Shown here: positions 2,731 to 29,609 of the stretch, one piece after another
How positions within the stretch are numbered: the stretch's first letter is position 1
How the letters are laid out: each line of letters opens with the position of its first letter
Assembly (NCBI GenBank): GCA_018897105.1
Contig: JAHILF010000031.1
Location: 62,001 to 126,000 of the forward strand
Direction of reading: 5' to 3'
DNA: 64,000 nt
Source of the DNA: Pseudomonadota bacterium
GTDB lineage: Bacteria; Desulfobacterota; Desulfobulbia; Desulfobulbales; SURF-16
Translations under genes and position numbers: made by a program
Notes under the pieces: model-generated
The model's input: only the letters and a program-made list of their open reading frames with translations
Databases searched by the model: none
Told to the model about the DNA's origin: nothing

Positions 2731-2768
2731 AATTGACGTAAAATTGAGACCAATGCATAGGTGAAAAT

Positions 2769-3698: not shown

Positions 3699-3710
3699 CA
3701 GGAGGAAGAA

Positions 3711-5041: not shown

Positions 5042-6901
5042 ATGATTCTACCGCTCAAATCGACCATCTACACTATTTACCTGGCAGTCTTCGCCGCCTT
5101 GGTAATCCTGCTCAGCCAGGGAGTCCGTCAATACCAGCTCTATCACCAACATGAAGCCATTATCTCCCAGACCGAAAGTCTTATTTTTCAATTTTCCATT
5201 ATCCGCGAACACGTGTCTGAGGCCCTTCTGGAGGATGGTCAGCAATCGAAACTTTCCGGCATTTCAACGGAAATGGAAAAACTTAACAGCAATCTGACAG
5301 CCATTCTGAGCGAAAAAAACATTGGAGATGAATATAAACTGCCTTTTTTAAACAGCATTGATCTGCCCGGAATTATCCTTCTACTGCGAAAAATTGAATC
5401 AGGAGCAGGGGAGATTGAAAACAAGCGCAATCTAAATAGCGAAATGCGCACTCTGGGAGAAAGGCTCCTCCTCTTTGACCGGGTACTGGTAAATAACTCC
5501 AAAAAAAAGTTGATAGGCTTTCAGAATATCATCATCGGCTCTACTACCTTTGTCGTCTTTTTGCTGGTGACGGTGCTAACCCTTTTTCATCGCCAACTGA
5601 TTGTACCTTTGCTGCAACTTATTAACAAAAGTAGTGAGGCAGCTTCCGGGCAGAACACCAGCATTCAGGTGAATAGCCCATCCAAAGAATTAACTAATCT
5701 TACCGGTTCTATTGACGACCTGCTGGAACAACGCAGTGTTTTGCAGCTGCAACTGCAAAACTATCGTCAAACCTTTTTAGAACTTGTCACTTCGCTGAGA
5801 GGTTTTTTCGTCGTCATTTCTCGTGAAGGCAAAATTATTGAAATCAGCAGCAATATTGCAGAAAAATGCGGCTTCACTCCAGCAGAATTGACTGGCCGAC
5901 AATGGCGTGATTTTTTCATCATGCCGCCCAATAAAGCTGACTCCAAGTTTCCCGACGCCCAATTTCTTGAGGACCCCTCCACCACATGCCAAACTTTTCA
6001 TATGTCACTTGTGACAATAGACCAAAGCCCTTCTTCTCACATTCGTTGCAGCTTCATCAAATATCCCGCGGAGGGAAACAGCGAATCGTATCATATCTAC
6101 TGCCTGGGGATTGATCTGTCCGAAGAGCAGGCTAAGATAGATGAACTGGAACAATGCCTTGCTGCTGAGATAAATAAAAAGGCGGAAATGGTACGTGTTT
6201 CGCACCTGGCCATACTTGGAGAGCTGTCGACAGGAATTGCGCATGAAGTCAGCAATCTCAGCAACGGGATCATTAATTATGCCCAGGTCCTTGCCGATGC
6301 AGCATGTGATCCTGACTTTGAAATTGAACGGGACAAACTTTTTAATAAGATTATTGTCGAGGGAGAAAAAATAGCGGGTCTGGCCAAAAACCTGCTCGCC
6401 TATGGGCAGGATGATGCGCAGTCAAAAGAACTTGCACCGATTGAAGATGTTTTGCAGAATTCACTCAATCTCATGAATCACTATTTCAGGATCGATGGGG
6501 CCACCGTTGAAACAAACTTCAATGCCACCATGCCTTACAGAACCAATGGGCGCCAGATGCAGCAGGTCTTTCTCAATATACTTAACAATGCCCGTCGAGC
6601 ACTCAACGAACGCTATCCGCAAAAGGATGAGAATAAAATAATCAAGATCAGCACCAATGAATTTGAAAAAAACGGGAAAAAGATGATCCGCCTGATCTTT
6701 ACCGATTTTGGCATCGGAATATCAGGTGAGAATTTAAAAAAGGTTTTTGAACCTTCATTTTCAACGAAACCTGCTTCAGAGGGAATTGGTTTGGGGCTTA
6801 CAGTGAGCCGCGAACTGATTGCCCAGCACCATGGAGAAATCTATCTGGAAAGCCAGCCCAATGACCATACTACCGTGACCGTAGAGCTTCCGCTAATTTA
6901 A
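5042..6901 (+). CDS. PAS-domain sensor histidine kinase
   Basis: Two TM segments; H-box HLAILGELSTGIAHEVSN; N-box FLNILNNARRALN; G-boxes DFGIGIS and GIGLGLTVS. Confidence 0.92.
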   Translation: MILPLKSTIYTIYLAVFAALVILLSQGVRQYQLYHQHEAIISQTESLIFQFSIIREHVSEALLEDGQQSKLSGISTEMEKLNSNLTAILSEKNIGDEYKLPFLNSIDLPGIILLLRKIESGAGEIENKRNLNSEMRTLGERLLLFDRVLVNNSKKKLIGFQNIIIGSTTFVVFLLVTVLTLFHRQLIVPLLQLINKSSEAASGQNTSIQVNSPSKELTNLTGSIDDLLEQRSVLQLQLQNYRQTFLELVTSLRGFFVVISREGKIIEISSNIAEKCGFTPAELTGRQWRDFFIMPPNKADSKFPDAQFLEDPSTTCQTFHMSLVTIDQSPSSHIRCSFIKYPAEGNSESYHIYCLGIDLSEEQAKIDELEQCLAAEINKKAEMVRVSHLAILGELSTGIAHEVSNLSNGIINYAQVLADAACDPDFEIERDKLFNKIIVEGEKIAGLAKNLLAYGQDDAQSKELAPIEDVLQNSLNLMNHYFRIDGATVETNFNATMPYRTNGRQMQQVFLNILNNARRALNERYPQKDENKIIKISTNEFEKNGKKMIRLIFTDFGIGISGENLKKVFEPSFSTKPASEGIGLGLTVSRELIAQHHGEIYLESQPNDHTTVTVELPLI

Positions 6902-8339
6902 CCACGACCAATGTATCCGTGGCGGCATCAAGTTCGATCCAACCTGTTACCTTGTTTGACGAAAGATCAATTACGGAAACGCCACCTTTATATTCATCAC
7001 CCACATATAGCCACTGCCGAGTGAGTGAGACATCCATTTCAAAGGGCATACCGCCAATTTGGATCCCCCGGGAAGCATTGAGCTGACCGGGGCTCAGCAC
7101 TGAAACAGTACCTGATCCGTAATTCGAAATATAAATATGGCTGTTGCCAAATACAAGCCGTCTCGGTTTGATGCCTACATTAATACGAAACTTGTCCCTG
7201 CCACCGGGAAGTTCAAAAACCGACACAGAATTACTGGAACTTTCTGCCACATAGAGATAGTTATCCCGCTCCAGCAGACCATCAGGTGTTCCACCTGTAT
7301 TAACCGTATTGACTATCGCCAAGGAAGTTGCATCCAGGAAATATACCTTCTGGGCATAGGCACAGGAAATCGCAAGAAGATTCTGATCCTCAAGGTAGAG
7401 CATATATTTGGGTCGTGAGCCAATGCGGATCTGTCCGTCAACAGTACCTGTTTGCAGATCGAGACGGAGCAGATTGTTGCCCATCTCATCAAGCAGGTAG
7501 GCCTTCTTTCCATCCGCACTAACCGTCATGTAGGTAGCTTTTATCGAAAGAGGAATCCTGATTTGATCGATCAGTCTGTTTGAGGTTAGCTCAAAAATCT
7601 TAACGGCAGAGTCCTTGGGGGCAAGTACGTAAAGTCGATTTGCTGCCAGATTTGCGACAATAGTGGTCGGCTTACCGCTGATGCCAATGGAACCGCATAC
7701 CATATTCAAATCGGTTCTGATAATGTAAATGGTATCAAGTAATGGACAGGAGACATAAGCCAGATCTGTCACAAGGGGAATACTCTGCAGGTTAATACTC
7801 ATATTGGGCTGGAGGAGGGCTGTCCCCTGCATGGAACCAGCAGTATCCCATGTCAGGAAAAGAGATGTACTGTCTCCTTTAGCAAGGTGGAGTTCCGCGG
7901 GAAAATTGATTTCAACAACCGGATTATCCACCGACAGAAAAATCATTTCCCCGTTACGATCGAGGGCAGCCTTTTCAACTGTAAATCTGATATTCTGATA
8001 TTGGCCGGCCGGAACCCCTCCTCTGGCGGCAAGAATCTGCCCGTTGGAGCGCACCTCCTGACGATGAATTTCCTCCCTGGTTGCCCTGATAGGGAACCAC
8101 GTATTGTAGGACCCAACCTCAAGATTACTGATTTTCATCCACAGATTGGGACCTTCAGGCTCTTTCAAGCGCAAAAAGACAGATAGCCTTGCATCACCGC
8201 TGCTTTCCTGAAGAGCCGCATGTGATAAGGAATCGCCACCAACCGCCCCACCCTGCTGACAACCGGCAAGAAAAAAAATTCCACAAAACAGAAAAAGCAA
8301 ATGCGAGACGATATTTACCCCACTCAAACGAGCTCTCAT
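6870..8339 (-). CDS. YVTN/YncE-like beta-propeller lipoprotein
   Basis: Lipobox FFLAGC; repeated blades (RLYVLAPKDSAVKIFEL, NLLRLDLQTGTVDGQI, YLYVAESSSNSVSVFELP, WLYVGDEYKGGVSVIDL). 3' end overlaps the convergent kinase gene by ~32 bp. Confidence 0.82.
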   Translation of the reverse strand: MRARLSGVNIVSHLLFLFCGIFFLAGCQQGGAVGGDSLSHAALQESSGDARLSVFLRLKEPEGPNLWMKISNLEVGSYNTWFPIRATREEIHRQEVRSNGQILAARGGVPAGQYQNIRFTVEKAALDRNGEMIFLSVDNPVVEINFPAELHLAKGDSTSLFLTWDTAGSMQGTALLQPNMSINLQSIPLVTDLAYVSCPLLDTIYIIRTDLNMVCGSIGISGKPTTIVANLAANRLYVLAPKDSAVKIFELTSNRLIDQIRIPLSIKATYMTVSADGKKAYLLDEMGNNLLRLDLQTGTVDGQIRIGSRPKYMLYLEDQNLLAISCAYAQKVYFLDATSLAIVNTVNTGGTPDGLLERDNYLYVAESSSNSVSVFELPGGRDKFRINVGIKPRRLVFGNSHIYISNYGSGTVSVLSPGQLNASRGIQIGGMPFEMDVSLTRQWLYVGDEYKGGVSVIDLSSNKVTGWIELDAATDTLVVVKLAEALRSR

Positions 8340-8375: not shown

Positions 8376-9464
8376 TCAATCTTTGGTCGTATGGCAAACA
8401 GCACAACCGTTATAGCCGCCGCCTGGCCACGATTTATAATCCCACCTCAATATGGCCTGATACTGCGTACCATGGGCTCGATGACATGAAAGGCACATGA
8501 CAATAGCATCATCAGGAGCGGTATATATGGTGCTGTTGATTATCTCTGTTTTACTTGCTGTTGCAACCGGAGAAATGACGCTGTAGACATTATTGGAGCC
8601 TGATCCCCCGTTATATGCCGCATATTCATCCGTCGAAGCGGCCCTGCCCATATCAAAATCGGTGGGATGCCTCAACCAGACTCCGGCACCAAATGTGCCA
8701 GAAGTAATCTTGCCCGAGCCTTGATGAAAGTCACCATGGCACTTGGCACAAAGACTACTGATGGTGCTGTTATCGTTTTGCGTCTCCGAGGTTCTGTCAA
8801 TTCCGTAATATTTGTTATGGCGGTTGCTTGCAGGACGATACTCATATTGCTGATCCTCCCATCCCTGCACGGAGTAGAGAAAGCGATAACTGTTCGCCAA
8901 TGTCGACCCGTCCTTCCACATGGTCATATCATTTGCATGATGGGACTTCATCATGGAGTTGATTTCACCGCTTACCGTACGGTCACCATGACAGCCACTG
9001 GTTCCGGCGCACGTGAGTTGCGTGCCTAAATCAACGCCACCGGGAGGTACATTGCCTAATCGAGTGTCTGAAGTTGCAATACCATTCACATTATGGCCGG
9101 TTGCATTCTGTCCGCTACTCACCCAGTAAAAATTTCCACCAGCCAGAGTAGTGGTGTTACCCTCCGTACCTGTGATACTGTATTCAGGAGGATTAGTTTG
9201 CAGAACATAAGGCGTGGTAAGAGTGCCGACACTATTATTTCCCTGATGACAGCCAATACAGTTGGTATTGAGCAAGGCTTCATTAGGTGTTAATGATAAA
9301 TCCAAAGATCCATTTATCATATTCTGCGCAACAGCGTTGCCTCCCTGGCTGTTGTGCATGGTATGACAATTGCCACATTGACCCGTAACCTTGGCATAGC
9401 AAACAAGCGGAAACAGGATCAAAGGCAGCGTAACCAGCCCCTTGAGACCTTTTGTTGTCTTCAT
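8376..9464 (-). CDS. OmcS-like hexaheme extracellular cytochrome (putative cytochrome nanowire subunit), copy 1
   Basis: CGNCHTMHNSQGG, CIGCHQ, GGNFYWV, GHNVNG, CAGTSGCHG (CX5CH), CAKCHGDFHQ, WLRHPTDFD, CLSCHRAHG, CAVCHTTKD. Order and spacing resemble Geobacter OmcS (CEGCHTMHNSLGG, CLNCHQ, GGDFGWV, GHNIV, CSSCHDPHG, CANCHTDIHNS, LRHPAG, CLSCHRAHAS, CNKCHAKD) as I recall it. Confidence 0.8.
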   Translation of the reverse strand: MKTTKGLKGLVTLPLILFPLVCYAKVTGQCGNCHTMHNSQGGNAVAQNMINGSLDLSLTPNEALLNTNCIGCHQGNNSVGTLTTPYVLQTNPPEYSITGTEGNTTTLAGGNFYWVSSGQNATGHNVNGIATSDTRLGNVPPGGVDLGTQLTCAGTSGCHGDRTVSGEINSMMKSHHANDMTMWKDGSTLANSYRFLYSVQGWEDQQYEYRPASNRHNKYYGIDRTSETQNDNSTISSLCAKCHGDFHQGSGKITSGTFGAGVWLRHPTDFDMGRAASTDEYAAYNGGSGSNNVYSVISPVATASKTEIINSTIYTAPDDAIVMCLSCHRAHGTQYQAILRWDYKSWPGGGYNGCAVCHTTKD

Positions 9465-9476
9465 GGTCACCCCTTT

Positions 9477-10364
9477 TTAACGGCCAAATACTTCTACCCG
9501 GCCATTACCCTCTTCTACAACACAAAGACCTCCCCACGGGTCAAATAATATCTCGATCGGGAAATAAAGCTCTCCTCGCGACCAACCCTTGGTAAGAAAG
9601 GTATATTTGAAGCTTCCCTCTGTGTCAAAAACAGCGATATCTGGCGCATGGCGGTCAAGCACGTAAATATTGCCAGCAGGACCAATTGCCAGAGAAACAG
9701 GGAACTCTACCTTCTGACCGACATCAAAATTTTTGATTAATTTCCCATCGCCGCCAAATTGAAGTACTTTTTTATCCAGTTGATCCAAGGCCCAGATACT
9801 GTCATTTATGAGTTTAAAATCAACGATGCCAGAGGTACACTCCGCACATGATATCCAGCTCTTCAAAGTAAGGTCGCTATTGAGTAAAGCAATTTGTCCG
9901 GTTTCTTTATCCAAGACATAAAAAATGCCATCCTTATAGTCAAGGCGATCCGGCACAAGTGTCCTCTCGCCATCGTATATAATGTGAGTTAAAATTTCTT
10001 TTGCCTTGATGTTAATACTTGTCAGACTGTTGCGTGCTTTCTCCACCACCCAAATGACATCGGAGTTATCCCGAACCATATCATAGGGAACCTGAAGCTT
10101 GCCTTCCGCGGTAAAGGAAAGAAGAAAATTTCCTTCCTTGGAAAAAGAAACCAATCTGTTGTTGCCGCTGTCGACCACATAATAACGTTGCCGATCGGCA
10201 TCTATATACAGGGCAGTAGGCATGACAATGGCTTGACCGGATCCTGCGCCATCAAGTGTTGCCTTCCAGGCCCAAGGTTCGGTAGCCAAAGAAGTTGTCG
10301 CGACCATAAAAATTGAGACTGCCAGGAATGCTGACTGGCTCAACATATTTTTCACGTACTTCAT
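9477..10364 (-). CDS. NHL-repeat/6-bladed beta-propeller secreted protein
   Basis: Signal peptide MKYVKNMLSQSAFLAVSIFMVATTSLA; NHL-like repeats (YYVVDSGNNRLVSFSKEG, NIYVLDRHAPDIAVFDTEG, LCVVEEGNGRVEVFG). Confidence 0.82.
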   Translation of the reverse strand: MKYVKNMLSQSAFLAVSIFMVATTSLATEPWAWKATLDGAGSGQAIVMPTALYIDADRQRYYVVDSGNNRLVSFSKEGNFLLSFTAEGKLQVPYDMVRDNSDVIWVVEKARNSLTSINIKAKEILTHIIYDGERTLVPDRLDYKDGIFYVLDKETGQIALLNSDLTLKSWISCAECTSGIVDFKLINDSIWALDQLDKKVLQFGGDGKLIKNFDVGQKVEFPVSLAIGPAGNIYVLDRHAPDIAVFDTEGSFKYTFLTKGWSRGELYFPIEILFDPWGGLCVVEEGNGRVEVFGR

Positions 10365-10422
10365 AGAGACTCCTTCACAAATCGGCATTCTGTAATCGAA
10401 AGTGCTGAATCGATATTTTCCA

Positions 10423-11598
10423 TCAATATCTCTTATGGCACTGAATGCACAAATCTTTCGAACCACTGTATATTAATTCATACTTAAAATCAGACCCCAT
10501 GGGCAGATGACAGGTGATACACGTCACCATCTGACTGGTTCGCACATCAACTACCTTTTCCCCAACCGGGTGGGTAAATTTGCCTTGAGTCTCATGGCAC
10601 CTGGTGCAAATGGCATTACCATCACCTCTCAGCATGGCGATCCTGTTTGAACCATGCACCTCGTGACAATTGATGCAGGACCCTTCTTTTGCTTTCGGAT
10701 GCCTGTAAAGTTTATTCTCATAACGTGCAATGGTGTCAGCATGACAACCACGGCAAACCTGCAGCTGGCTGCCTTTTAATAAATTCTTTTCATTGCCGGC
10801 ATGGGGTGAATGGCAGGACAAACATTTATTTTCTCCCTTACCCGTTAAATGACTATGCCGGGCAAACATACCGGTCGCGACCGCTTCATGACATCTGAGA
10901 CAACTCTGTGTGCTGCCCTGTATTTCCCCTTTATCATGACATTCTTTACATCCTTGGACAAAAGGCGCATGGAGGATATCACGAACAATGCCCTTCCTGC
11001 TGCTGCCGTGTGGATTGTGACACGAAAGACAATCGCGTAAAGTTCCGGGATAATTCAAATGGCCCTTCTGCAGGTCTTGAGACTTATGACAGGACAGACA
11101 GACTTTATCAGGTTCATCCTTGAGCAATTGGCCAAAAACTGACTGATGAGGCCGGTGGCAGGAATAACATTGCCCATGGGCATAGGGCTCATGGGTATAT
11201 TGAAATTTAGGAGAAAGTTTCGTATGACAGCCGAAACAGGTTGCGCTTAACTGATCCTTGAGAAGCCCTTTTCTGAAACTTGCGTGGGGCACATGACAAA
11301 CAAGACATTGTCCGCTACGCACAGGCTGATGGACCATCCCCTGTTTGAACGTAGTCTCTTCCTTTGCATGACAGGAAAAGCAGAGTGCTGACCCTTCCTG
11401 TTCCAGTAATCCCTTAAAATGCGCAACATGGGGATTATGGCAAGCGCCACATTGCCCATTGGCTAGCGGTTGATGGACAAACTTGTCGCTGAAAGCCTCT
11501 TTTTTGTGGCAATTAAAGCAGACTGTATCTGCTGCCGCTGCTATGGGAAAAGCTAAGGCAAGCCAGGAAATGACAAAGATTCGATAATAATTTAACAT
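10423..11598 (-). CDS. Multiheme cytochrome c with 16 CXXCH motifs (doubled-CXXCH type)
   Basis: 16 CXXCH counted; signal peptide MLNYYRIFVISWLALAFPIAAAA; start overlaps the upstream stop (TAATG). Confidence 0.92.
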   Translation of the reverse strand: MLNYYRIFVISWLALAFPIAAAADTVCFNCHKKEAFSDKFVHQPLANGQCGACHNPHVAHFKGLLEQEGSALCFSCHAKEETTFKQGMVHQPVRSGQCLVCHVPHASFRKGLLKDQLSATCFGCHTKLSPKFQYTHEPYAHGQCYSCHRPHQSVFGQLLKDEPDKVCLSCHKSQDLQKGHLNYPGTLRDCLSCHNPHGSSRKGIVRDILHAPFVQGCKECHDKGEIQGSTQSCLRCHEAVATGMFARHSHLTGKGENKCLSCHSPHAGNEKNLLKGSQLQVCRGCHADTIARYENKLYRHPKAKEGSCINCHEVHGSNRIAMLRGDGNAICTRCHETQGKFTHPVGEKVVDVRTSQMVTCITCHLPMGSDFKYELIYSGSKDLCIQCHKRY

Positions 11599-13550
11599 TA
11601 TTTTCTGCCCTCCCCGGGATGACACGGGCTGCATTTGCCTTCGGCAAAAGGCTTATGACTTACCGGGAAGAGTAATCCTTTTGTCGGACCCCCATGAGGA
11701 TCATGGCATTTCAGACAGGAAGCGATTCCCGGACGAATTCCTTGATGCACGGCAGTGAATCGTGTTTCCGTGAGATTATGACAGCGGGCGCAGAGCTGAC
11801 CACCTTTTTCATGCACGATTCCTTTATTCTTTGAGGCATGGGGGTCATGACACACTGTACAATCATTTGTCGCCGGGTCATGGGCGAAACCATCCCGCCA
11901 ATAGGTGGATATTTGATGATGACAGCTGAGACAAAGGGCCGGCTGTTTTTGCGCAAGATTTTTCGGGTAGGCGGAGCCATGTGCCAAATGGCAGGCTGCG
12001 CAATTCAGGTCCTTCACCGGTCCATGAACCACAGGGGAATCGCTGATCACTTTTTCCATCCCCCCATGGCAGCTAAGACACAGTTTTCCAGGATTTTCTT
12101 TCAGGTTGTAAACATAATCTCCGGCATGAGGAGAGTGGCATTTTTCGCATTCTTTTTTAGCAAAAGGATCATGGGCAATGAAATTTTCATTTTGTTTTTC
12201 CAGAACCTTATGGCAGGAAAGGCAAAGCCTGCCACCGACCGTACTTTCCTTTAGCAGATTCTTCCTTTCTCCCTGATGGGGCTCATGACATCGACTGCAG
12301 TCACCATTGGCAAAAGGAGTGTGGAGACTGAAGCTGCCCATCTCTCTGCCACTCTGTTGATGACAGGGAAGGCAAACCTCCTTCTCATTCTTGACAAGTA
12401 ATTTCCTCTCACCGGCTTCATGCGGATTGTGACACTCCAGACATTTACTCTTTGCAGCCGGTGGATGGGAAACTATACCTTCACTGTAAAGTTTTTTCTC
12501 ATGGCATTTATAACAAATCTTCGAAGACTCGATGGCCAGCAGAGCTGCCTGCTGCGAACTATGGCCCATATGACAGGAAAGACACTGGCCCTTACTGTAA
12601 GGCTCATGGCTGCTTTTGATCATGGTCATGTCTGCACCGGCGTGACAACTTACACATACCTTTTCCGGTGGCATAGCAAGCATATACTTGTTTTCACTGG
12701 CATGTGATGCGTGACACTTAAGACAGAGCCCCCCTGTGTAGGGCTTATGCTGGCTGGTCATTTTCATGTTGCGGCGAGGATGGCAGGTTAAACACCCAGC
12801 ATTGGCATCGCCTTTAATCTGCAACGCTCCTTCACTGCCAATCAGATGGCAACCGGCACATTTACCCTCCATAACCGGCTTATGCACTACCAACTTTAAT
12901 AAATGAAGGCCATCGGAACTGTGCGGGCTGTGGCAGAGAACACACTTTCCTTGCACCGGATAATCACGGTGGCTTTTACGAAAAGCCGCCTCATCATTCT
13001 TATGGCAGGAAAGACAGAGACTGTCTTCGGCTTGTTTGAGAAGGGATTTTACACCTGATCCATGGTTTACATGACAGCTGGCACAACCCTCTTTAACAGG
13101 GTCATGCACATTAGTCCGAGAAAAATGCTTTCTATCATGGCAGGTAAAGCAAATCTCAGGGCTGGCGGATCTCAACAGGCCTTTATTCGTGCTGTTATGT
13201 ACCTCATGGCAGGACAGACAAAGTCCTTGGGCAACAGGCTTATGCACGGACTGCTTCTTGCTTTCCTCTTCAATCTGCTGATGACAGACAAAACACTGTT
13301 CAGGCGGATTCTGTCGAAGATACGTACCGCCAATCATTCCATGATGAAGATGACAAGCCTCACAATTATCTTCTTGCACAGGTTTATGAACAACTCCTTG
13401 TTTGAAAGCGGCAGCCATATCGGCGTGACATTCCACGCAGCTTTTTCGGGGCTGGCGAACCGGTTGGCTGCTGACGCAGGAAACAAGCAAACTGAGGATG
13501 AATGCCAGTCCAAAAAATAACTTAATTTTATTTCCCGACATGAAGATCAC
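11598..13550 (-). CDS. Giant multiheme cytochrome c lipoprotein with 26 CXXCH motifs
   Basis: 26 CXXCH counted in 650 aa; lipobox-like LSLLVSC; recurrent H(K/D)P...CxxCHxxHxS modules. Confidence 0.93.
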   Translation of the reverse strand: MIFMSGNKIKLFFGLAFILSLLVSCVSSQPVRQPRKSCVECHADMAAAFKQGVVHKPVQEDNCEACHLHHGMIGGTYLRQNPPEQCFVCHQQIEEESKKQSVHKPVAQGLCLSCHEVHNSTNKGLLRSASPEICFTCHDRKHFSRTNVHDPVKEGCASCHVNHGSGVKSLLKQAEDSLCLSCHKNDEAAFRKSHRDYPVQGKCVLCHSPHSSDGLHLLKLVVHKPVMEGKCAGCHLIGSEGALQIKGDANAGCLTCHPRRNMKMTSQHKPYTGGLCLKCHASHASENKYMLAMPPEKVCVSCHAGADMTMIKSSHEPYSKGQCLSCHMGHSSQQAALLAIESSKICYKCHEKKLYSEGIVSHPPAAKSKCLECHNPHEAGERKLLVKNEKEVCLPCHQQSGREMGSFSLHTPFANGDCSRCHEPHQGERKNLLKESTVGGRLCLSCHKVLEKQNENFIAHDPFAKKECEKCHSPHAGDYVYNLKENPGKLCLSCHGGMEKVISDSPVVHGPVKDLNCAACHLAHGSAYPKNLAQKQPALCLSCHHQISTYWRDGFAHDPATNDCTVCHDPHASKNKGIVHEKGGQLCARCHNLTETRFTAVHQGIRPGIASCLKCHDPHGGPTKGLLFPVSHKPFAEGKCSPCHPGEGRK

Positions 13551-15180
13551 CGAGCTCCTTTTTAATTTTCTCCCAGGCGCGGTTGTTTATTTCAAAAACC
13601 GATTTTTCTTTCAGAGCGGCAAGATATTCATTACGTACCTTGGAAAATTTTTCCTCTTCAACTAGGCTGGCAACTTTATCATGGACATGGTCAAAGGGCA
13701 TAGGGGTGGCTGGAGTCCGTTTTATCAATTTTATAATTGTATGATGACCTTTCACAACAAATGGATTACTCAATTCTCCAATCACCAGACTATCTACAAC
13801 CTGCTGAACAATCGGATCAAGATATCTGAATTGCATGTTCTGCACCGGCACTTCCCCAGAATAATAACGGGAAACAACTTCAAAGAAATCATCGCCTCTT
13901 TCCATTTCCTTATACATCTTGTCAATAAGGTTTTCTTCATCCTCCACAACGGCTATGGAGACCATTTCGGGTTGCGAGAAACGATCCAGATGTTCCTGAT
14001 AATACTTTTCGATATCCTGTTCACTTACCTGAACCTGTGGTTTAAAAAGACGTTTTTCAAATTCCTTTATCAGACGGTGCTGAGTATAAAAAAGGTAAAG
14101 GGGCTTTAAAGGTTCTTTTTCTTCATAATGCTCATCAAGGGCTCCTCTTGTTGTAAGAGTCTGGGCAAGCACTCCATCAAGTAGCCTTTGTTTCAGCTTA
14201 TCTCCCTTCTCAACCGCAAAACCATACTGTTTGCGGAATTGCAGTTCCTTGTTAACGAGATCAAGAAACACTCTCACCGTATAACTTCCATTGTCCATGG
14301 TAATGAGCGTCTGATCAAGGAGTTCTTCATTGGATGAATCCAGATTCAGGGCATCAAAAACCTGCTGGTTTATTTTAACCTGATATTTTTTTTTCAACTG
14401 CTCGACAAGTGCGACAGTAAGTTCCTGCTCCTTTCTCTCCCGGACCTCATTGGTGATCATCGGTTTCAGCAACTCAAAATCCTCAGCATCATATCCTTTC
14501 TGGGACACAAGACGAATGATAACAAAACCTTTACTCCACGGGAAAGGCTCGGACATCGCTCCAGGTGTCAAACCATCAACTACAGGACGCCACTCCTGCT
14601 GAAGCTGATTGGTTCTTAGCCATTTTTCATCATAATAAACGGAATTTTTGTTAACGATTGTCGCCTCAGCTGCAAACTTAGCAAAATCCAGATTCCCTTC
14701 TTTTATATGTTCGTAAGATTTTTTTGCCACCTCGCCATCATTAAAATAAAGAATCTGCAGCTGCAGACGGGGTAGATATTTTTCCTCATAACGATCTTTG
14801 AGTTCCTTATCTGATATTTTAACCTGAGAATTAATCTTATCTCCCTTGTAAACAAGCAATGTGCGTGCTTTCAGGAAGATATCTATTTTATGGCGGTACT
14901 CCGGTTCGTTATAAAGCTCCATCTTTTCGGCTTCCTGAACCAACAAATGCCAATCAACAAAAGGATCAACTGATTCAGGGAACTGTGTGTCCTTTTCTTT
15001 CCAATTTATCCACCAGTTTTTAAAATCGTCAGACGTTAAACTGCTGCCATTTATAGTTACAAGTTTCTCCGCTCCCCAAGGCCAAGCATGTCCGTCTCCG
15101 GCAATGGTCAACATCCAGAAAAAAACAACCCCGCATATAAATCCTATTTTCCGCATTGCTTCATTCCTTCGGCGAACCAT
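13528..15180 (-). CDS. Peptidyl-prolyl cis-trans isomerase, PpiC/SurA-like
   Basis: Signal peptide; parvulin-like segments (MSEPFPWSKGFVIIRLVSQKGY, IGELSNPFVVKGHHTIIKLIKRTPA). Confidence 0.82.
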   Translation of the reverse strand: MVRRRNEAMRKIGFICGVVFFWMLTIAGDGHAWPWGAEKLVTINGSSLTSDDFKNWWINWKEKDTQFPESVDPFVDWHLLVQEAEKMELYNEPEYRHKIDIFLKARTLLVYKGDKINSQVKISDKELKDRYEEKYLPRLQLQILYFNDGEVAKKSYEHIKEGNLDFAKFAAEATIVNKNSVYYDEKWLRTNQLQQEWRPVVDGLTPGAMSEPFPWSKGFVIIRLVSQKGYDAEDFELLKPMITNEVRERKEQELTVALVEQLKKKYQVKINQQVFDALNLDSSNEELLDQTLITMDNGSYTVRVFLDLVNKELQFRKQYGFAVEKGDKLKQRLLDGVLAQTLTTRGALDEHYEEKEPLKPLYLFYTQHRLIKEFEKRLFKPQVQVSEQDIEKYYQEHLDRFSQPEMVSIAVVEDEENLIDKMYKEMERGDDFFEVVSRYYSGEVPVQNMQFRYLDPIVQQVVDSLVIGELSNPFVVKGHHTIIKLIKRTPATPMPFDHVHDKVASLVEEEKFSKVRNEYLAALKEKSVFEINNRAWEKIKKELGDLHVGK

Positions 15181-15755
15181 TCTTCGATTATCTCATCCGA
15201 TATGATCCGACTGAGTTGAGTCACGGTATTAACAAGTCCAAAATGCATAACCTTACGATAATCCGTACCTTCACGCCTGTGATAGGTATTCCACATCGTT
15301 TTGCCTCTTTTGGCATCATAAACCTGCAATGTTACGGCTAAAACAGGATTTACATAGTTATCCCCCATTTTTTCTTCCATTTCCGTAATTCTACCGCTGA
15401 TCACAAGCTGAACATCAAGCCGGCTACCAAGCACTCTGATTTGCTCGATACTGGGAAGTTGATTCGGATATATGCGCAGTTCTCGATAAATGTTCTGAAC
15501 ATCCCCTTCAGAGGCAACTTCAATACCGGCAATGCGGGTCAATTCTGCAGCAAAAACACGTTGCATGATCAAATTGCCCTGTTCAAAACGGCTACCGTTA
15601 ATAAAAGGAAGAAGAGCCACAGAACAGATGCTCTCCCCTTCATAAACATTTTTTTTCCCGTGAGAAGGCCTTGATGAAGTACAGGAACTGCCTCCCAAAA
15701 GAATCACGACAAGAAGAAGAAATATGGAAAAATATCTGAATTGCGGAAAATTCAT
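15144..15755 (-). CDS. CsgG/GNA1162-like lipoprotein
   Basis: Lipobox LLGGSSC; SICSVALLPFINGSRFEQGNLIMQRVFAAELTRIAGIEV resembles CsgG/GNA1162/TolB-N folds. Confidence 0.65.
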   Translation of the reverse strand: MNFPQFRYFSIFLLLVVILLGGSSCTSSRPSHGKKNVYEGESICSVALLPFINGSRFEQGNLIMQRVFAAELTRIAGIEVASEGDVQNIYRELRIYPNQLPSIEQIRVLGSRLDVQLVISGRITEMEEKMGDNYVNPVLAVTLQVYDAKRGKTMWNTYHRREGTDYRKVMHFGLVNTVTQLSRIISDEIIEEWFAEGMKQCGK

Positions 15756-15774
15756 AATAATAGTGATCTGCTCG

Positions 15775-17250
15775 TTAAAATTCAGGGACCCATTCTTGCT
15801 GCTTGGGCGGTTCAGGTTGATCGTCCTCAACATTGACTAATTGCATAAGATTATCGATTTTTTTCTGAGCCTTATTGCCTAACACGTCCTTCATGCAGAC
15901 AACAGCCTCAAGTTGCCTCGTATCTGACGGTGAAGGAAACGGGATCAGAACGTCCACTGGAAGATCAGTTCCTTGACTCTGCAACAAGACTTCACCGTCC
16001 GAATACAAAATTTCGGCACTCCAGTAATCGACAGGAATTTCATCCTCAGAATCCAGGGTTACGATGAGACTGTCATTACCTACTGCTGCGTTTATCACCG
16101 GAATTGGGGGAGTACTTTTCAAAAACACCTTCTTGGTCGATACTGTGGAATTATTTGCCCTGTCCCAGACCGTTAACACAATTTCGTAGATGCCGTCTTC
16201 AGCCTTATGGCCATCCGGGCGTTGTCCATTCCAGACGAAACGTTGCGGTAAAGAACCTTTATTCTCTGTGCCGGCCATGACCTGCCCCCCCATATTCTGT
16301 ATAAACAGCGACCAATGGGAAAGCGGCTCCGGATCCAGCCAAACAGGGGTAATAGGTAACCTGCCATTAAATGCCATGAAATTGTTAACATTTTTCCCGG
16401 CGACTTTCAAATTCAATTTCGGGGAATGCGTATCAATCTGATAATTTCCGACAAAGAAAACAAGTGCTCTCCCGGATTGACATCTTAAAACAAGACTGAC
16501 GGGAAGTAATCCTTCATGGTCAGGAGCAGACCAGAAAACAGCGTAGGAGTTGGGGGATACCTCAACCATGTCGAGATAATTATCTTCTCCAATCCTAAGC
16601 AGGACTTGGGAAATTGTCTCACCGCCTGCTGGTGTTCGAATTTTGACGGAACAACTCACCTCATCACCCGGTTTAACATGTTGTGAAGAAAGTCGTGACG
16701 TTTCAACAACTATGCCTGGGTTTTGTCCTGTAACTTCCAGAACAGCAGGCCAGCTGCTCAGGAGCTGCTGTGCAAGAACGGGAAATAAATCGTCGAGGCT
16801 TTCGGGTTCATCAATAGCAAAAAAATTAGAGATATCAGCTTTGCTCATTCCACCGACCTCGGTCCATACCGTCCGTGCGTCACAAGCGCGTACCAGGGTC
16901 AGCACCATCCCGAAAGCTGCCAGTGGTAATTCCTGCCGCTGGCTGACTGTCCCGAAAAGGATAAAGTCTGCACCAAGGTCATCCCGAACTTGATAAATAT
17001 GACTTGTACCAAGGAAACCAAGCCATCTGATACGATTCCTGGACATGAACGAGATAACTTTATCCGTCGGAATGACTTCAATCCCTTTTTCCTGCAAGTT
17101 CTGCTGTAAAAATTCGGTGAGAGTGAAATTGACTCCATTACGTCCCTCACTGAGGTCTTCCACAGGGAAAACAGCCACAGTGACAGCCTGAGCATATGAG
17201 GCAATCAGTGTGGTCATCGTCAGAAGTGTTATAATGAGGAACCTTTTCAT
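15775..17250 (-). CDS. CsgG/FlgO-like N-terminal domain plus FlgD-Ig-like C-terminal region, secreted
   Basis: Signal peptide; VTVAVFPVEDLSEGRNGVNFTLTEFLQQNLQEKGIEVIP; FlgD-Ig-like RFVWNGQRPDGHKAEDGIYEIVLTVWDRANN. Confidence 0.65.
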   Translation of the reverse strand: MKRFLIITLLTMTTLIASYAQAVTVAVFPVEDLSEGRNGVNFTLTEFLQQNLQEKGIEVIPTDKVISFMSRNRIRWLGFLGTSHIYQVRDDLGADFILFGTVSQRQELPLAAFGMVLTLVRACDARTVWTEVGGMSKADISNFFAIDEPESLDDLFPVLAQQLLSSWPAVLEVTGQNPGIVVETSRLSSQHVKPGDEVSCSVKIRTPAGGETISQVLLRIGEDNYLDMVEVSPNSYAVFWSAPDHEGLLPVSLVLRCQSGRALVFFVGNYQIDTHSPKLNLKVAGKNVNNFMAFNGRLPITPVWLDPEPLSHWSLFIQNMGGQVMAGTENKGSLPQRFVWNGQRPDGHKAEDGIYEIVLTVWDRANNSTVSTKKVFLKSTPPIPVINAAVGNDSLIVTLDSEDEIPVDYWSAEILYSDGEVLLQSQGTDLPVDVLIPFPSPSDTRQLEAVVCMKDVLGNKAQKKIDNLMQLVNVEDDQPEPPKQQEWVPEF

Positions 17251-17361
17251 AATAATCAAAACAAACTATAATTTTTCTGTAACTCGCAATAAAATTTACC
17301 TACATGTTACGCGGCATCAGCTTATATTATATCACGACGCATCACTCAATCTCATTTTTTT

Positions 17362-18294
17362 TTAAGGCGCAACAGTCATCGATTCACCAGGTGCTGGCTC
17401 CACAACAGGAGCAGGCGGTTCAACTTCTACGTCGACTGGTTCAGCAGGTGAAGGTTCAACCACTACTGCCGCAGGCTCAATCGTCTCTATTTCTACGTCC
17501 ACGGCAGGTTCAGCGGGAGCAGGCTCTTCCGGAACTGCCGGTTCAACAACATCGCCGCCTTGTTCAGAAGGTGAAGGTTCACCCTCTACAGTTACAGGCT
17601 CAGCAGGAGCAGACTCTTCAGAAACTGCCGGTTCAACAACATCAGTCGTGACAGATACCGGTCTAACAACCACAGGTTTATCGGCCACGGGTGCAGCAGG
17701 CACAGGTACAGGAACATTTTGCCTCTCAGGTATAGTGGAGAGAAGTTCCTTGGCAAGTTTAACAGTAACCTTGTAAGCATCATCAGGTGTTATGCCAAAG
17801 AGTCGTCCCACAACGGAATCTCCAGCATAATGACCACTGGCCTGCCATAATACAATACCAGACTTTATCTCGATAAGTCGCAAGGTCAGACTCATTTCAG
17901 GAACAATCACGGAACCAATCCGTTTATCTCCTGCCATGTCGACGGAACCAATCATAATAGACTGAACATTGAGGCGCTGCCCAAGTCTACTGAGCATAAG
18001 TTGACTCACAGGAGATCCTGGGTCAATGGCTTCTTCATGCAAAACACTGTCAGTAATCCCTTTATCCACGACATCAAAGATATTCATGGCCAGAATCTCG
18101 GTATTGATCACATCCCTTGCAAGCTCAGCTGCATATTTCTGTTCCGTATTATTTTCCAGAGGAAGAACGCTGATCCTGTTGACAAAGTCAAGCGTCACAT
18201 CTTCTCTCATAAAAGAAACTGTCGTTTTCCCAGAACATCCGGTCAGTATGGAAAAACACATCAAAGTCAGTATGGAACACATTATTCTTTTCAT
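17362..18294 (-). CDS. CsgG/GNA1162-like lipoprotein with Pro/Glu/Val-rich C-terminal tail
   Basis: Lipobox SILTGC; RISVLPLENNTEQKYAAELARDVINTEI; ~100-aa EPAVPEEPAPAEPAVDVE low-complexity tail. Confidence 0.7.
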   Translation of the reverse strand: MKRIMCSILTLMCFSILTGCSGKTTVSFMREDVTLDFVNRISVLPLENNTEQKYAAELARDVINTEILAMNIFDVVDKGITDSVLHEEAIDPGSPVSQLMLSRLGQRLNVQSIMIGSVDMAGDKRIGSVIVPEMSLTLRLIEIKSGIVLWQASGHYAGDSVVGRLFGITPDDAYKVTVKLAKELLSTIPERQNVPVPVPAAPVADKPVVVRPVSVTTDVVEPAVSEESAPAEPVTVEGEPSPSEQGGDVVEPAVPEEPAPAEPAVDVEIETIEPAAVVVEPSPAEPVDVEVEPPAPVVEPAPGESMTVAP

Positions 18295-18348
18295 GAACAG
18301 AACCCTTGGGAAATTAATTTTAAACATTTATCATTTAAGTTTCAAACA

Positions 18349-20385
18349 TCAGTAACGAATGACAAACTGCCCACCGTATGCAAATTCGGTTTCATCCTCA
18401 TCAATATAGGTACAATAGGCATGCATTGAAAAAATTCGATTTATAGTCCAGTTGTAATTTGCACTATAATCATCACTACTTTCACTATGATTATAACTCA
18501 GATTTAACTGTGTTTTGTATGTAGGTGCAACGGTCACCGTGAGATAATTTGTAAAAGCAGAAGATTCATCGCTTTCCCACTCCTGGCCGGCACCAACCTG
18601 CATGGAAAGGATATCAGAAGCCCTCCAGCTTATGCCTATTAAACTGGAGGCGGTCCAGGTTGATTCTTCAGCGTTTGAAGTGTTGTATCTTTCTGTGAGA
18701 TCCACCGTCATTTCGGGATTCAGCCGTGCGGTAAACTTCAAGGTGGAATTAAAATCCTTTGAGGTCTCATCTGTCTCTTCATCACGCTCGGTGATATAAG
18801 CAAGATCAAGATTCGAGGTCAAATCAGGGAATATCAAGGCGGTCAAAAACATGTTGTAATTATAGCTGGTGTCTGTTTTCACATCCGCTTCATATATATC
18901 GCTCCGGGTGACACCATAATTCATATCGACCGTAGGGAGCAGCAGCGATGAAAAACTGAGCGAGTAATAACGTGTTTTTTCTTCATCTTCGTCCCCTACC
19001 TGATCTTTCGACTCGCTGGCGCTCATGGTTGAAGAAAATGAGAGGGTGGGTGACCAGATGAGACTGGTTGAATTGTAGGTCCGACTAATATCATCCCCAA
19101 CTGCTGTTTCACCGTCTTCCATTATGAGGTTATACGTCCAGTTGAGATCAGGGGTGATAAGAAAACGAAGTGATGTATCCCCTAAATAGGTGTAATAAGT
19201 TGTATTATGGGTAATCTTCTGTCCCGGATCCCCGCTAACCCTGGTAAAGGCTTCGACCCGGGTAATGTTGAAATTATCGTCAGTGGGAATTCTGTCTTCA
19301 ACCAGCATGACAAATTTAGCTGTTACTTGAGGAATTTCAATTTCAAAACGTTGCTGGGTACTATCGTATATCTGCGAAGTCGCTGGTCCCTGAGAAGACC
19401 ATTCGGTTCCATTGGAACTGGTATAGACTGTCCACTGGAAGCGGTTAAGATTCCCTGATTCAGTTTCACCCAGGTCGGTTTCCGTATAAATATAGAAATC
19501 ATTGACCGGTTGTGGTGATAATTGAAAAATGGCGACATTATAACGTTCATGGTGAATAACGGTATTCGGAAAACTCGTTAATTCATTCCATTCAGGATCA
19601 TCATCAGGATCAGGCGAAGCCTGTCCACCACGACTTTCTATGCTGTGAATGGGAACCAGTGCGCTGCCGCCAGGATCAATTTTCGTTTCAAAATCCTGGG
19701 TGTTGTTGGCGTATTGCCCCAGGAAGGTGACATTTAAACGATCCTCCCAGAAAGATTTTTCAGTTGTCAGACGGGCGAGTTGATTGGTTGATTTATCATT
19801 ACTGTTGGCGACAAAATCATCACTCTCATTGAGGTCTATATTGTAATAGACTTTAGCGAGCAATAAATCCCAGTCAATATTGAAACCGCTGAAGGTGCTC
19901 TCTGCGTCAATCCGGCTTGGACTCTCATCATCTATGGTGCTGCTTGCTGCATAATTAAGCTGCACCATCGGCCAAAGTTCTTTCTGCCAGTTACTGATCC
20001 ACCTGCCCTGCCAGTTACTGCTGGTCAAATCGGATCTTTCGGAGTTTCGCAGCTTGTTCCACGTGCCGGAAAGGTCAAAATAAAAGAGATCATTGTTGAT
20101 CTGGTAGTCTAGAGACGGAGTGATTGCCTCTGTTTCATACCCACCCTTGAAAGTTGTCGTATAGCGGACAGTTTCGTCTATACTCATCACTGGAGTCAGT
20201 GGCTGGTCAAGCTCGAGAGTGGTGCTTTGACTGACCTGTGATTCACTTCCTTCATCTTCAGTATGCTGATATGTTCCGGTGCCGATAAATGACAGCGGCT
20301 TTCCCTGGACGATATCGTCACAGAAAAAAAACATCAGCAACAGGGCATAGATAATGCCGTTATATTTTATCCCCCCTCGCATCAT
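18349..20385 (-). CDS. Outer-membrane beta-barrel (putative cytochrome-conduit porin) with inserted discoidin-like domain
   Basis: Signal peptide; alternating amphipathic strands; C-terminal aromatic GGQFVIRY; insertion containing FYIYTETDLGE...RFQWTVYTSSNGTEWSS...ARFEIEIPQVTAKFVMLV-like F5/8C features. Confidence 0.7.
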   Translation of the reverse strand: MMRGGIKYNGIIYALLLMFFFCDDIVQGKPLSFIGTGTYQHTEDEGSESQVSQSTTLELDQPLTPVMSIDETVRYTTTFKGGYETEAITPSLDYQINNDLFYFDLSGTWNKLRNSERSDLTSSNWQGRWISNWQKELWPMVQLNYAASSTIDDESPSRIDAESTFSGFNIDWDLLLAKVYYNIDLNESDDFVANSNDKSTNQLARLTTEKSFWEDRLNVTFLGQYANNTQDFETKIDPGGSALVPIHSIESRGGQASPDPDDDPEWNELTSFPNTVIHHERYNVAIFQLSPQPVNDFYIYTETDLGETESGNLNRFQWTVYTSSNGTEWSSQGPATSQIYDSTQQRFEIEIPQVTAKFVMLVEDRIPTDDNFNITRVEAFTRVSGDPGQKITHNTTYYTYLGDTSLRFLITPDLNWTYNLIMEDGETAVGDDISRTYNSTSLIWSPTLSFSSTMSASESKDQVGDEDEEKTRYYSLSFSSLLLPTVDMNYGVTRSDIYEADVKTDTSYNYNMFLTALIFPDLTSNLDLAYITERDEETDETSKDFNSTLKFTARLNPEMTVDLTERYNTSNAEESTWTASSLIGISWRASDILSMQVGAGQEWESDESSAFTNYLTVTVAPTYKTQLNLSYNHSESSDDYSANYNWTINRIFSMHAYCTYIDEDETEFAYGGQFVIRY

Positions 20386-20576
20386 TAGTTACATTCCACA
20401 TGTAATTAATATTTAAAAACAGCCATTTTATTTCGCCCCTTGGTATTCCCTTCCCATCACATGACAAAAAGACATGAACACAAAGAATATGCAACAGTTA
20501 ATTGATGAAAATGCAAAATAAATCAAACACCTACTTCATTAATTTGTTAAAGATAAATAGTACAGATGCATGGACA

Positions 20577-20637
20577 AAAAAAATTCCGGCCTGGAAACGA
20601 TTAGGAGGGAAGGGGTATCGTTTCCTGGCCGGAATTT
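20577..20637 (-). terminator. Rho-independent terminator of OmcS-like copy 2
   Basis: 21-bp arms with one mismatch: AAATTCCGGCCTGGAAACGAT (20581-20601) / ATCGTTTCCTGGCCGGAATTT (20617-20637); on the minus strand followed by a T tract. Confidence 0.85.
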
Positions 20638-20693
20638 ATCTCATGCGATATTCTTTTTAATTTAACATAAAAAACACTTATACAACCTGTTCA

Positions 20694-21812
20694 TCAACCA
20701 GCATCTTTGGTGGTATGGCATGCAAAGCAACCACATGCGGCATCATCAGCGCCTGCTTCGCAGGTACTATAATCCCAGCGCAGTAAATCTGCATATGGAG
20801 AACCATGAGCCCGATGGCAGGAGATACAGTTCACTATCGCATCACCGGCAGTTGCATTGACGTCGCTTACAGGAGCAGCAAGAGCTGCTGTTCGATCCGT
20901 GGCAACGGGTATCAGAGGCAGATATGTCCCATCAGTGCCGTAAGCCGAATATTCTGTGCCGGGAAGATTATTCATGTCATAATCGGTGGGATGCCTGAGC
21001 CAAGCTGAACCAGCGGTGTTAGCTGTGTCGGCGCCTTTATCATCAGCAGCACCTGAGTGAAAATCACCATGGCATTCCGCACAGAGGTAGTTAATGCCTT
21101 TTGCGCCCTCACTACCAGAGGCAGGAGGCGTGTCGTTTGTTCTGTCGTAACCGTAATATTGATTATGATCGGATGAACTTTTTGTATATTCCCAATCGCT
21201 GTCCTCATAACCGATAATACCGTAAAGAAAACGAAAACTCTTTGCAGCTGTTGAACCATCAATGCTTGAGTCGTCAGCGTGGTGAGAGCCTGATATGGCG
21301 GTAAAATCATCAACGGAGCCGCCGTCCTCATGAATACCATGGCAACCATTCGTGCCGGCGCAGGTCAGCTGCGCAGTCCATGTCGCAGCGGCGCCATTCA
21401 GCTCGGTATTTGCATCAAAAGTGGCATTCCAGCCTGGGGGAGTTTCTCCCAAAGTAGCATCAACTGAATTTAAACCAACAACGTTATGACCTACCGTGTC
21501 GTCCCCAGCCACCACCCAGCGAAAGTTGCCGCCGGCAAGGGTATCGGTGCCATAAGTAGCCGCTGTAGAGAAAACATACGGAATATTGCCCCCACTGTTA
21601 GCTCCGGTATGACATCCGACACAACCGCCGGACTTGTTAACCAAGGCACCTTGTGGACCAGCTACGACAATAGCGGCTCCATCCTGACTGTTATGCATTG
21701 TATGACAGTCAACACAAGGACCTTGGGCCTTTGCACCAACTAGTTGCGGGGCCATTAAGGCTAAACCAACCAGGCCCAAACCTAGCGAAAATACTTTCAT
21801 TTTTTTAATCAT
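20694..21812 (-). CDS. OmcS-like hexaheme extracellular cytochrome (putative cytochrome nanowire subunit), copy 2
   Basis: CVDCHTMHNSQDG, CVGCHT, GGNFRWV, GHNVVG, CAGTNGCHG (CX5CH), CAECHGDFHSG, WLRHPTDYDM, CISCHRAHG, CFACHTTKD. Confidence 0.82.
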   Translation of the reverse strand: MIKKMKVFSLGLGLVGLALMAPQLVGAKAQGPCVDCHTMHNSQDGAAIVVAGPQGALVNKSGGCVGCHTGANSGGNIPYVFSTAATYGTDTLAGGNFRWVVAGDDTVGHNVVGLNSVDATLGETPPGWNATFDANTELNGAAATWTAQLTCAGTNGCHGIHEDGGSVDDFTAISGSHHADDSSIDGSTAAKSFRFLYGIIGYEDSDWEYTKSSSDHNQYYGYDRTNDTPPASGSEGAKGINYLCAECHGDFHSGAADDKGADTANTAGSAWLRHPTDYDMNNLPGTEYSAYGTDGTYLPLIPVATDRTAALAAPVSDVNATAGDAIVNCISCHRAHGSPYADLLRWDYSTCEAGADDAACGCFACHTTKDAG

Positions 21813-22720: not shown

Positions 22721-24283
22721 TTATTTATTATGGGAATGGAGACAGTTGTTAACCGCCTTGTAAAAAGAGCACACCAGGCATGTTTCAATTTTGCTTGCAC
22801 ACATTGCAGCTATTCTGCTCTGGCTGGTTGGTCCTGATGTTGCCCAGCATATACGGCCAAAATGAGGATACGCCGAGCAATGGCGCGATAGCTCCGTTTC
22901 GATGCCGCATCCTAGATATTCCCAGCATGGAATCATTTTGTCCTGCTCTTCACTTTGAAATGGAAAATTAAGGGAAAATTCCGTGCCACTGCCGACATCA
23001 TTTTTCACACTGACAAAACCCCGGTGCTCTTCCATGATTTTTTTGAGAATACTCAGACCAAGCCCTGTAGCAAGACCAACCTTTTTGGTAGTAAATAATG
23101 GTTCGAAAATGAATTTGATAACATTAGGGTCGATACCTTTACCTGTATCGCTGATTGAAATCGTCAAATAAGGTGTATGATGAATTGACGCTTGGCCGGT
23201 GGACAAGGACAAAACTCCACCTTCCGGCATGGCTTCAATAGCATTACAGATAAGAACATCCAGAGCTTGTTGAACCTGCACAGAGTCAATCTTTGCTCTG
23301 GGCAGGCCTGTTTCGTAATATTCTTCCAAAGTAATATGTTGCTCTTGACACAGCGCACGATAACGAGGGGAGACTGCCCGTAACGGTTTACTGATCTCCT
23401 CGGGCTTTAGTTGCGATACTGCGATATTGCAATAGTCAAGTGTATCCCCTAAAATTTTCTCATTACGGAAAATTTCATTAATTATTATCGAGATAGATTC
23501 ATGCCCTACGACTCCGGAATCAGTATTTTTTTGATAATTTTGCGCTACCCCCCTAAGGTTCATGAGCGAATTTCTCATCTCATTGGCAACATCAGCTGTT
23601 AACCTGCCAAGCGAGGAAAACTTTTCCATTTCAATTAATTTCTGTTGCACCAGTTTAATGTTTTCCTGTAAATGGGCGAGATCCCCATTGAGATAATCCA
23701 CCTTTTTTTTGTCACGCTTCGCCTGTTCTGACAAAAGCCCCAGAGGCACCGTGATGAAGTAAAGGAATGCGATACGTACGACAAGATCAGTCCAATTTAT
23801 AAAATCTAAAAGAGATGTGATACTGAGGAGGTAAAAAAAGGCTGACAGGGTAGCGGCAAGAAGACCAAACCTGAGTCCGAAATAAATAGTATGGAGACAG
23901 ACAAGAAGATAAAAACCCAGAAAAAAACTATTTTCAAAACTTCGCTCAGAGTAAACTAAGTTTGCGAGAAAAATGATGTCACAAAAAAACGATGCGATAT
24001 AGACTTTTCTCAGCCAAACAGGCCTGAAGAAGATAACACAGTAACAGACAATGCTGTAAAGGGAAAAACCAATCAGTGTTTTGAGCAGGATGGCTTTTTC
24101 ACTGGCAGAATAGGGAACCAGCAACAGCCAACCAATCCCGGCAAAGAAAGAGACAATTCGTAAGGCAAGGAAGGTTATATCAACTTCCGAAGTAACAGTT
24201 GAAACTGCTTTCCATTGTTGCTTTAGGGCATTTCGTTGAGTTTCAAACACCTCGGATTGTGACATTTGCGGATTCCGTCTCAA
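22721..24283 (-). CDS. Membrane sensor histidine kinase with C-terminal cysteine-rich (two-CW-like) domain
   Basis: 6 TM-like N-terminus; MEKFSSLGRLTADVANEMRNSLMNLRG; G-boxes SDTGKGI, GLATGLGLSI; tail IPCWEYLGCGIE...CSAY...ICWATSG...CASKIETCLVCSFYKAV. Confidence 0.88.
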   Translation of the reverse strand: MRRNPQMSQSEVFETQRNALKQQWKAVSTVTSEVDITFLALRIVSFFAGIGWLLLVPYSASEKAILLKTLIGFSLYSIVCYCVIFFRPVWLRKVYIASFFCDIIFLANLVYSERSFENSFFLGFYLLVCLHTIYFGLRFGLLAATLSAFFYLLSITSLLDFINWTDLVVRIAFLYFITVPLGLLSEQAKRDKKKVDYLNGDLAHLQENIKLVQQKLIEMEKFSSLGRLTADVANEMRNSLMNLRGVAQNYQKNTDSGVVGHESISIIINEIFRNEKILGDTLDYCNIAVSQLKPEEISKPLRAVSPRYRALCQEQHITLEEYYETGLPRAKIDSVQVQQALDVLICNAIEAMPEGGVLSLSTGQASIHHTPYLTISISDTGKGIDPNVIKFIFEPLFTTKKVGLATGLGLSILKKIMEEHRGFVSVKNDVGSGTEFSLNFPFQSEEQDKMIPCWEYLGCGIETELSRHCSAYPHFGRICWATSGPTSQSRIAAMCASKIETCLVCSFYKAVNNCLHSHNK

Positions 24284-26696: not shown

Positions 26697-26721
26697 CCCT
26701 TTACTCCGGAGAAGGGTTATT
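26692..26721. terminator. Bidirectional hairpin between convergent regA-like and NHL genes
   Basis: AATAACCCTT ... AAGGGTTATT perfect 10-bp arms. Confidence 0.5.
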
Positions 26722-28023: not shown

Positions 28024-28106
28024 TTTTCAAAAATCCCGTATGAAAAAAAATTGAACCTCGTCAACTAAATATGCTAGCATAATTCCCAATTGGTTCATTG
28101 GCTTTC

Positions 28107-29279: not shown

Positions 29280-29591
29280 TAATTTTCTTTAACCGAATTT
29301 TATAATAAAACATCGGCCGCACAAAATACGCCACGCAGCTCTGACAGTATAAATGAATTCCTATTCATAATTTGACAATTTCACCTACCATTTTCATTTT
29401 CTGTTGTCAACACTGCTGTCTGTATCAAACAAAACCGAAAAAGCAATGCATCTCTATGTAGGCAAGCTTTTTGCCAGGAAAAATTACAGCAAACAAATCC
29501 TAACATTATTTTTTCACAACTTTCCTTTACCAGATGAAAAATTATGCTCTTCCCCGCCGAATATGGTGCACCCAAAAAAAATACCAACGAA

Positions 29592-29609
29592 TGCGACAAT
29601 TTGCCTCAT
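29592..29609. promoter_or_regulatory. RegA/PrrA-like box upstream of PilZ gene 2
   Basis: TGCGAC-AATTT-GCCTCA(T), ~90 bp before 29698; same 18-mer as upstream of PilZ gene 1. Confidence 0.65.

Follow-up and report, generated by a model that had tools for sequence, protein, structure and literature searches.

In OmcS of Geobacter sulfurreducens (6ef8, 6nef), the hemes stack in the order of their motifs, and one of the 12 heme ligands is supplied by the neighbouring subunit (PMC6584659); what OmcS filaments do in the physiology of the cell is itself a matter of dispute (available part of PMC11077965). OmcS-like proteins of Desulfurivibrio alkaliphilus were described in 2025, with heme motifs counted as CX2-5CH. 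Among them, DA_402 is upregulated more than 100-fold in iron-oxide respiration with sulfide and is the most prominent cytochrome under these conditions, and DA_756 and DA_765 are also induced (available sections of PMC12545173). OmcS-like genes have further been reported together with an OetABI-type conduit in partner bacteria of ANME (accessible text of PMC10553843), and an operon encoding a six-bladed propeller, a 16-heme and a 26-heme cytochrome and an isomerase has been described (accessible text of PMC5539420). Deviations from the CXXCH heme motif are also known: the atypical sites CXXCK and CX15CH come with dedicated CcsBA proteins (PMC10663686), and the filament cytochrome OmcZ contains one enlarged heme motif with a 14-residue loop (PMC9473688).

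Here we analysed a 64,000-nucleotide stretch (the window) of contig C152 from the 4.95-Mb genome of SURF-16 (Desulfobulbales), a sulfur-cycling bacterium. The window carries two genes for OmcS-like hexaheme cytochromes, omc1 and omc2 (Table 1), on the minus strand, which the preliminary description had left unstated; no open reading frame was found on the plus strand at either position. The upper boundary of omc1 had been placed at 9464, which is indeed an in-frame ATG, but the reading frame itself extends by two codons to a GTG at 9470; the ATG may well be the true start. The heme motifs are, in order, CGNCH, CIGCH, CAGTSGCH, CAKCH, CLSCH and CAVCH in omc1, and CVDCH, CVGCH, CAGTNGCH, CAECH, CISCH and CFACH in omc2. 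Alignments bear out the proposed OmcS order of six motifs in both copies, with CX5CH counted as site 3, and the landmark blocks CHTMHNSQ, GGNF.WV, GHNV, LRHPTD, C.SCHRAHG and CHTTKD recur in both; the CX5CH reading of the third site, CAGT(S/N)GCH, is confirmed at the codon level in each. Mature omc1 contains 12 cysteines, each within one of the six heme sites.

Table 1. Coordinates of the two OmcS-like genes, their third heme sites and the neighbouring cluster in the window
Feature	Position	Strand	Properties or basis of assignment
YncE-like beta-propeller lipoprotein, downstream of omc1	6870..8339	-	domain match
omc1 (copy 1), OmcS-like hexaheme cytochrome	8376..9470	-	364 aa, GTG start; signal peptide; five CXXCH and one CX5CH
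CX5CH codons of omc1 (CAGTSGCH)	8988..9011	-	DNA pattern scan of the genome
NHL-repeat beta-propeller	9477..10466	-	NHL, 1.7e-11
16-heme doubled-CXXCH cytochrome	10423..11634	-	16 CXXCH counted; Pfam
26-heme doubled-CXXCH cytochrome, lipoprotein-like N-terminus	11598..13550	-	26 CXXCH counted; Pfam
PpiC/SurA-type peptidyl-prolyl isomerase	13528..15180	-	Rotamase_2, 6.8e-23
Lipoprotein, weak FlgT_M match	15144..15833	-	domain match and synteny
Secreted protein, 494 aa, weak FlgD-type Ig domain	15775..17259	-	domain match and synteny
Lipoprotein, weak LpoB-like match	17362..18327	-	match and synteny
Putative outer-membrane beta-barrel, 678 aa	18349..20385	-	no Pfam match; place of the conduit porin; role inferred from context
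omc2 (copy 2), OmcS-like hexaheme cytochrome	20694..21812	-	372 aa, ATG start; signal peptide; five CXXCH and one CX5CH
CX5CH codons of omc2 (CAGTNGCH)	21339..21362	-	DNA pattern scan; modelled as two short strands

Both proteins are true homologues of OmcS. A single-sequence phmmer search against the PDB did not match OmcS, and family profiles were required: hmmsearch recovered OmcS (6ef8/6nef) at 1.7e-21 with a profile of 17 relatives and at 5.9e-26 with a profile of 128, the latter alignment extending from site 1 past site 5. In the profile-PDB alignment, OmcS QLHCSSCHDPHG stands opposite QLTCAGTxGCHG, so that the CSSCH given for OmcS site 3 in the preliminary description was correct. The AlphaFold model of omc2, a protein-only model with hemes absent, had a pLDDT of 35 with 17 input sequences, and a pLDDT of 82 and pTM of 0.84 with 128. 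When this model was compared by Foldseek with 350,542 PDB chains, OmcS 6ef8 was the sole significant match (E 3.5e-5, prob 1.00), with moderate TM-scores (0.45/0.39) and an rmsd of 12.1, and the OmcE filament was the second and last match, a weak one (E 0.91). The window proteins have the six-site order, the landmark blocks, the fold and the CHTMH histidine in common with OmcS and differ from it in the third site, which is CXXCH in OmcS; taken strictly, as a protein with CXXCH at all six sites, OmcS does not include omc1 or omc2. In addition, the window clade has a conserved HH pair and an HN histidine with no aligned His in OmcS.

A genome scan combined with fetched loci yielded 135 relatives, including the two window genes, and an alignment of 136 rows with OmcS. 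Of these relatives, 89 form a hexaheme class with a single CX5CH site in the site-3 region (consensus C-[AS]-G-x-x-G-C-H-G). Despite a median pairwise identity of 43% within this class, C1, C7, H8 and the second Gly of the motif are invariant (89/89), and the first Gly is kept in 87/89; the three heme-site residues are among the 34 invariant columns of the 305-column alignment, which are mostly heme Cys and His, with some Gly and Pro. CX5CH is thus, as judged from these alignments, the normal state in a large OmcS sister clade and not a peculiarity of this pair: the OmcS kinship and the altered third site put forward in the preliminary description stand, on profile, fold and alignment. Searched as a DNA pattern in the whole 4.95-Mb genome, C-x-G-x-x-G-C-H-G occurs only in omc1, omc2 and a third OmcS-like gene. 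Together with the invariance of its residues in the hexaheme class, this shows that the motif is not a chance occurrence. We found no discussion of a CX5CH heme site in open-licence PMC text, and no statement on heme-site spacing in the accessible text of PMC10553843 and PMC5539420.

In a seven-site sister class, the same region holds two sites, a canonical CX2CH ahead of the HH pair and a variable one in which C...CH is kept at a spacing of 2, 3, 4, 5 or 6. MAFFT aligned CX5CH with the second of these two sites, and by residue context it is readable as the first. At the site-3 position, a CXXCH that runs on into (D/N)PHG is seen in OmcS and in three distant relatives. In a tree computed with the columns of the site-3 region removed, 87 of the 88 CX5CH rows group together with moderate support (SH-aLRT 86), the spacing states require at least 10 changes overall, and omc1 and omc2 fall in separate lineages. 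The SURF-16 genome itself encodes two seven-site OmcS-like paralogues (L020 and L018, on C86 and C38), each with a variable site followed by CX2CH ahead of the HH pair; the variable site is a CX5CH of another type (CGTANSCH) in one and CSPCH in the other.

Sequence homology, the fold, the invariance of the motif, the gene order and the inventory of lyases form the established part of our reading. Beyond it, we propose, with a probability of roughly two in three, that omc1 and omc2 are secreted hexahemes of the OmcS superfamily that serve an Oet-type conduit, carry heme 3 on CX5CH through the ordinary CcsBA lyase and form OmcS-like chains outside the cell. What is known here is the kind of cytochrome for extracellular electron transfer and its cluster; the clade-wide variant heme site is the part for which we found no discussion in open-licence PMC text.

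The His that follows site 1 (CHTMH) is present in 136/136 rows and occupies position 16 in both OmcS and omc2. We take His16 of OmcS to be the histidine that ligates the heme of the next subunit, and by analogy, the CHTMH histidine of the window proteins would ligate the heme of a neighbouring subunit. The conservation of this residue in every row strengthens the filament reading, and omc1 and omc2 can be regarded as candidate subunits of extracellular filaments. Alternatively, proteins with the OmcS fold could function at the conduit mouth, singly or in short oligomers, with omc1 and omc2 in differing roles other than that of a wire. The placement of the two in separate tree lineages, because of which they need not share a function, is compatible with this alternative, but the conserved CHTMH histidine and OmcS architecture, together with the OmcS-like oligomer predicted for the relative DA_402 (available sections of PMC12545173), speak against it, and we regard it as rather unlikely.

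As for the third site, its His is as strictly kept as both cysteines, which argues for a heme at CX5CH. Since hemes stack in motif order in OmcS, the chain would be interrupted if heme 3 were lost. In the proposed arrangement, heme 3 would be a heme c held by the two thioethers of C-[AS]-G-x-x-G-C-H-G, and the CX5CH segment would fold back such that both cysteines reach one heme, with the His as axial ligand. In the omc2 model, short strands at mature residues 125-128 and 132-135 lie around C127 and C133-H134, which suggests that the site forms a hairpin. The corresponding nine-residue segment reads C-S-S-C-H-D-P-H-G in OmcS and C-A-G-x-x-G-C-H-G in the window clade, and the second His of the OmcS segment aligns with the CH histidine of CX5CH. 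A more specific version of the proposal, which we put forward tentatively and hold as possible rather than probable, is that, within a segment of fixed length, heme 3 has its proximal ligand displaced by three residues and that a beta-hairpin anchor, served by an unspecialised CcsBA, replaces the CXXCH turn. If true, such a mode of heme c anchoring would be new, and the orientation or potential of one mid-wire heme could be altered by it.

Two other readings of the site are less probable. Heme 3 might be present but attached through one thioether, which Cys7 of the motif would provide, while the first Cys plays another role; the CH pair is intact as in canonical sites, and a gap of five residues may hinder two-point attachment. 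However, the first Cys is as invariant as the second (89/89), and exactly 12 cysteines are present in 32 of the 89 hexaheme-class proteins, which have none beyond the six sites and hence no spare cysteine for it to pair with, making this arrangement improbable. Still less credible is a heme-free site in a pentaheme cytochrome, with the two cysteines in a hairpin disulfide and the His used elsewhere: their position on adjacent predicted strands would also fit a disulfide, and the standard lyases are known above all for their action on CXXCH, with CX15CH requiring its own (PMC10663686), but a disulfide would not need the His that follows the second Cys in 89/89 proteins, the motif-ordered stack would be interrupted without heme 3, and the seven-site class still keeps C...CH across spacings of 2-6.

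The question of which lyase would serve the site was approached through the gene inventory. The SURF-16 genome contains a single ResB-CcsA pair (contig C124), one CcsA-like gene that is HemX-like and adjoins a hemA-type gene, and, on C95, a divergent CcsA-like gene; no CcmH was found in the genome, and a Cytochrom_C_asm/ResB search of the window contig gave no match. The divergent gene on C95 was rejected as a dedicated lyase: it has no cytochrome gene nearby and is absent from several CX5CH genomes. Two other CX5CH genomes (G072 and G107) each contain one strong CcsA and one weaker match that is HemX-like by score and size. A dedicated lyase linked to the CX5CH genes was sought beside the cluster and not found, whereas the CXXCK and CX15CH sites need dedicated lyases, a contrast that counts against the proposal. 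CX5CH most likely carries a normal heme c, and the single general CcsBA would join heme 3 to it. If so, a gap of five residues is acceptable to the general System II lyase, and attachment models must therefore allow for sites other than CXXCH that have no lyase of their own; annotation by CXXCH alone would count five rather than six hemes per subunit in this group of nanowire candidates. The comparison with OmcZ is limited to the presence of a single altered site in a filament cytochrome, whereas its fold is unrelated, it has eight hemes and the altered heme is heme 1, not heme 3 (PMC9473688). In D. alkaliphilus (G024:C1:914135-914773), a second CcsA gene is located ~7 kb from the OmcS-like cluster; on the window contig, no such neighbour was found.

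The D. alkaliphilus proteins belong to the same clade and share the CX5CH site. The published DA_402 primers (available sections of PMC12545173) have one match in the D. alkaliphilus genome (G024), inside locus L105, which overturned an assignment of DA_402 by gene order to a 2-2 class gene (L095). The L105 protein has seven motifs, the third being CAGAKGCH, and thus includes an additional seventh CXXCH that is absent from the window proteins; DA_402 was modelled as an OmcS-like filament in the available sections of PMC12545173. At 894-907 kb, genome G024 also contains a cluster of ten genes in identical order, bracketed by two CX5CH proteins (CAGAAGCH and CATATGCH); from the gene numbers, which fit a span of ten genes, we infer that these are DA_756 and DA_765. 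The available sections of PMC12545173 contain no discussion of the CX5CH site that we could find; the CX2-5CH counting used there recognises it implicitly. With the same site in DA_402, the most induced D. alkaliphilus cytochrome on iron oxide according to these sections, the proposal is testable in a cultured organism.

By gene content and order, the 13 kb between omc1 and omc2 is the known Oet-type conduit, with its ten-gene order. The propeller, 16-heme, 26-heme and isomerase genes are adjacent, as in the operon of PMC5539420, and this core with OmcS-like genes nearby is shared with the conduit of the ANME partners (PMC10553843); unlike the loci in the accessible text of these two sources, the window has two OmcS-like genes bracketing the ten-gene cluster. 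Gene order is kept in loci L001-L012, as far as each extends, and paired OmcS-like genes span ~13-16 kb in 16 genomes. Related loci, and also L168, contain counterparts of the barrel, both lipoproteins and the 494-aa protein in the same position, and homologues of the YncE-like propeller lipoprotein adjoin omc1 in L005 and L010. The two large cytochromes, with 16 and 26 hemes, would together with the barrel take electrons across the outer membrane and pass them to OmcS-like heme chains, joined head to tail, on the outside. From these chains the electrons could reach Fe(III) oxide or some other solid acceptor, or else a partner cell; flow could also run inward.

The same bacterial conduit, with an OmcS-like gene of the CX5CH type, is present on one contig labelled Heimdallarchaeota (L005), and this label is likely to reflect misbinning. 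Elsewhere in the window, genes for a five-CXXCH cytochrome, a TAT-exported 4Fe-4S protein and an NrfD-like membrane protein lie in a row upstream of the conduit (2209-4967), likely a redox module linking quinone and periplasm. Sensor histidine kinases are encoded beside the cytochrome clusters (5042-6901, 22721-24283, 24739-26121 and 35745-37502). A second multiheme cluster (26701-35512) encodes an NHL propeller and proteins with 10, 8, 5, 12 and 12 CXXCH sites, of which the adjacent 12-site proteins (33651-34469 and 34487-35512) resemble the OmcX-related pair in the accessible text of PMC5539420.
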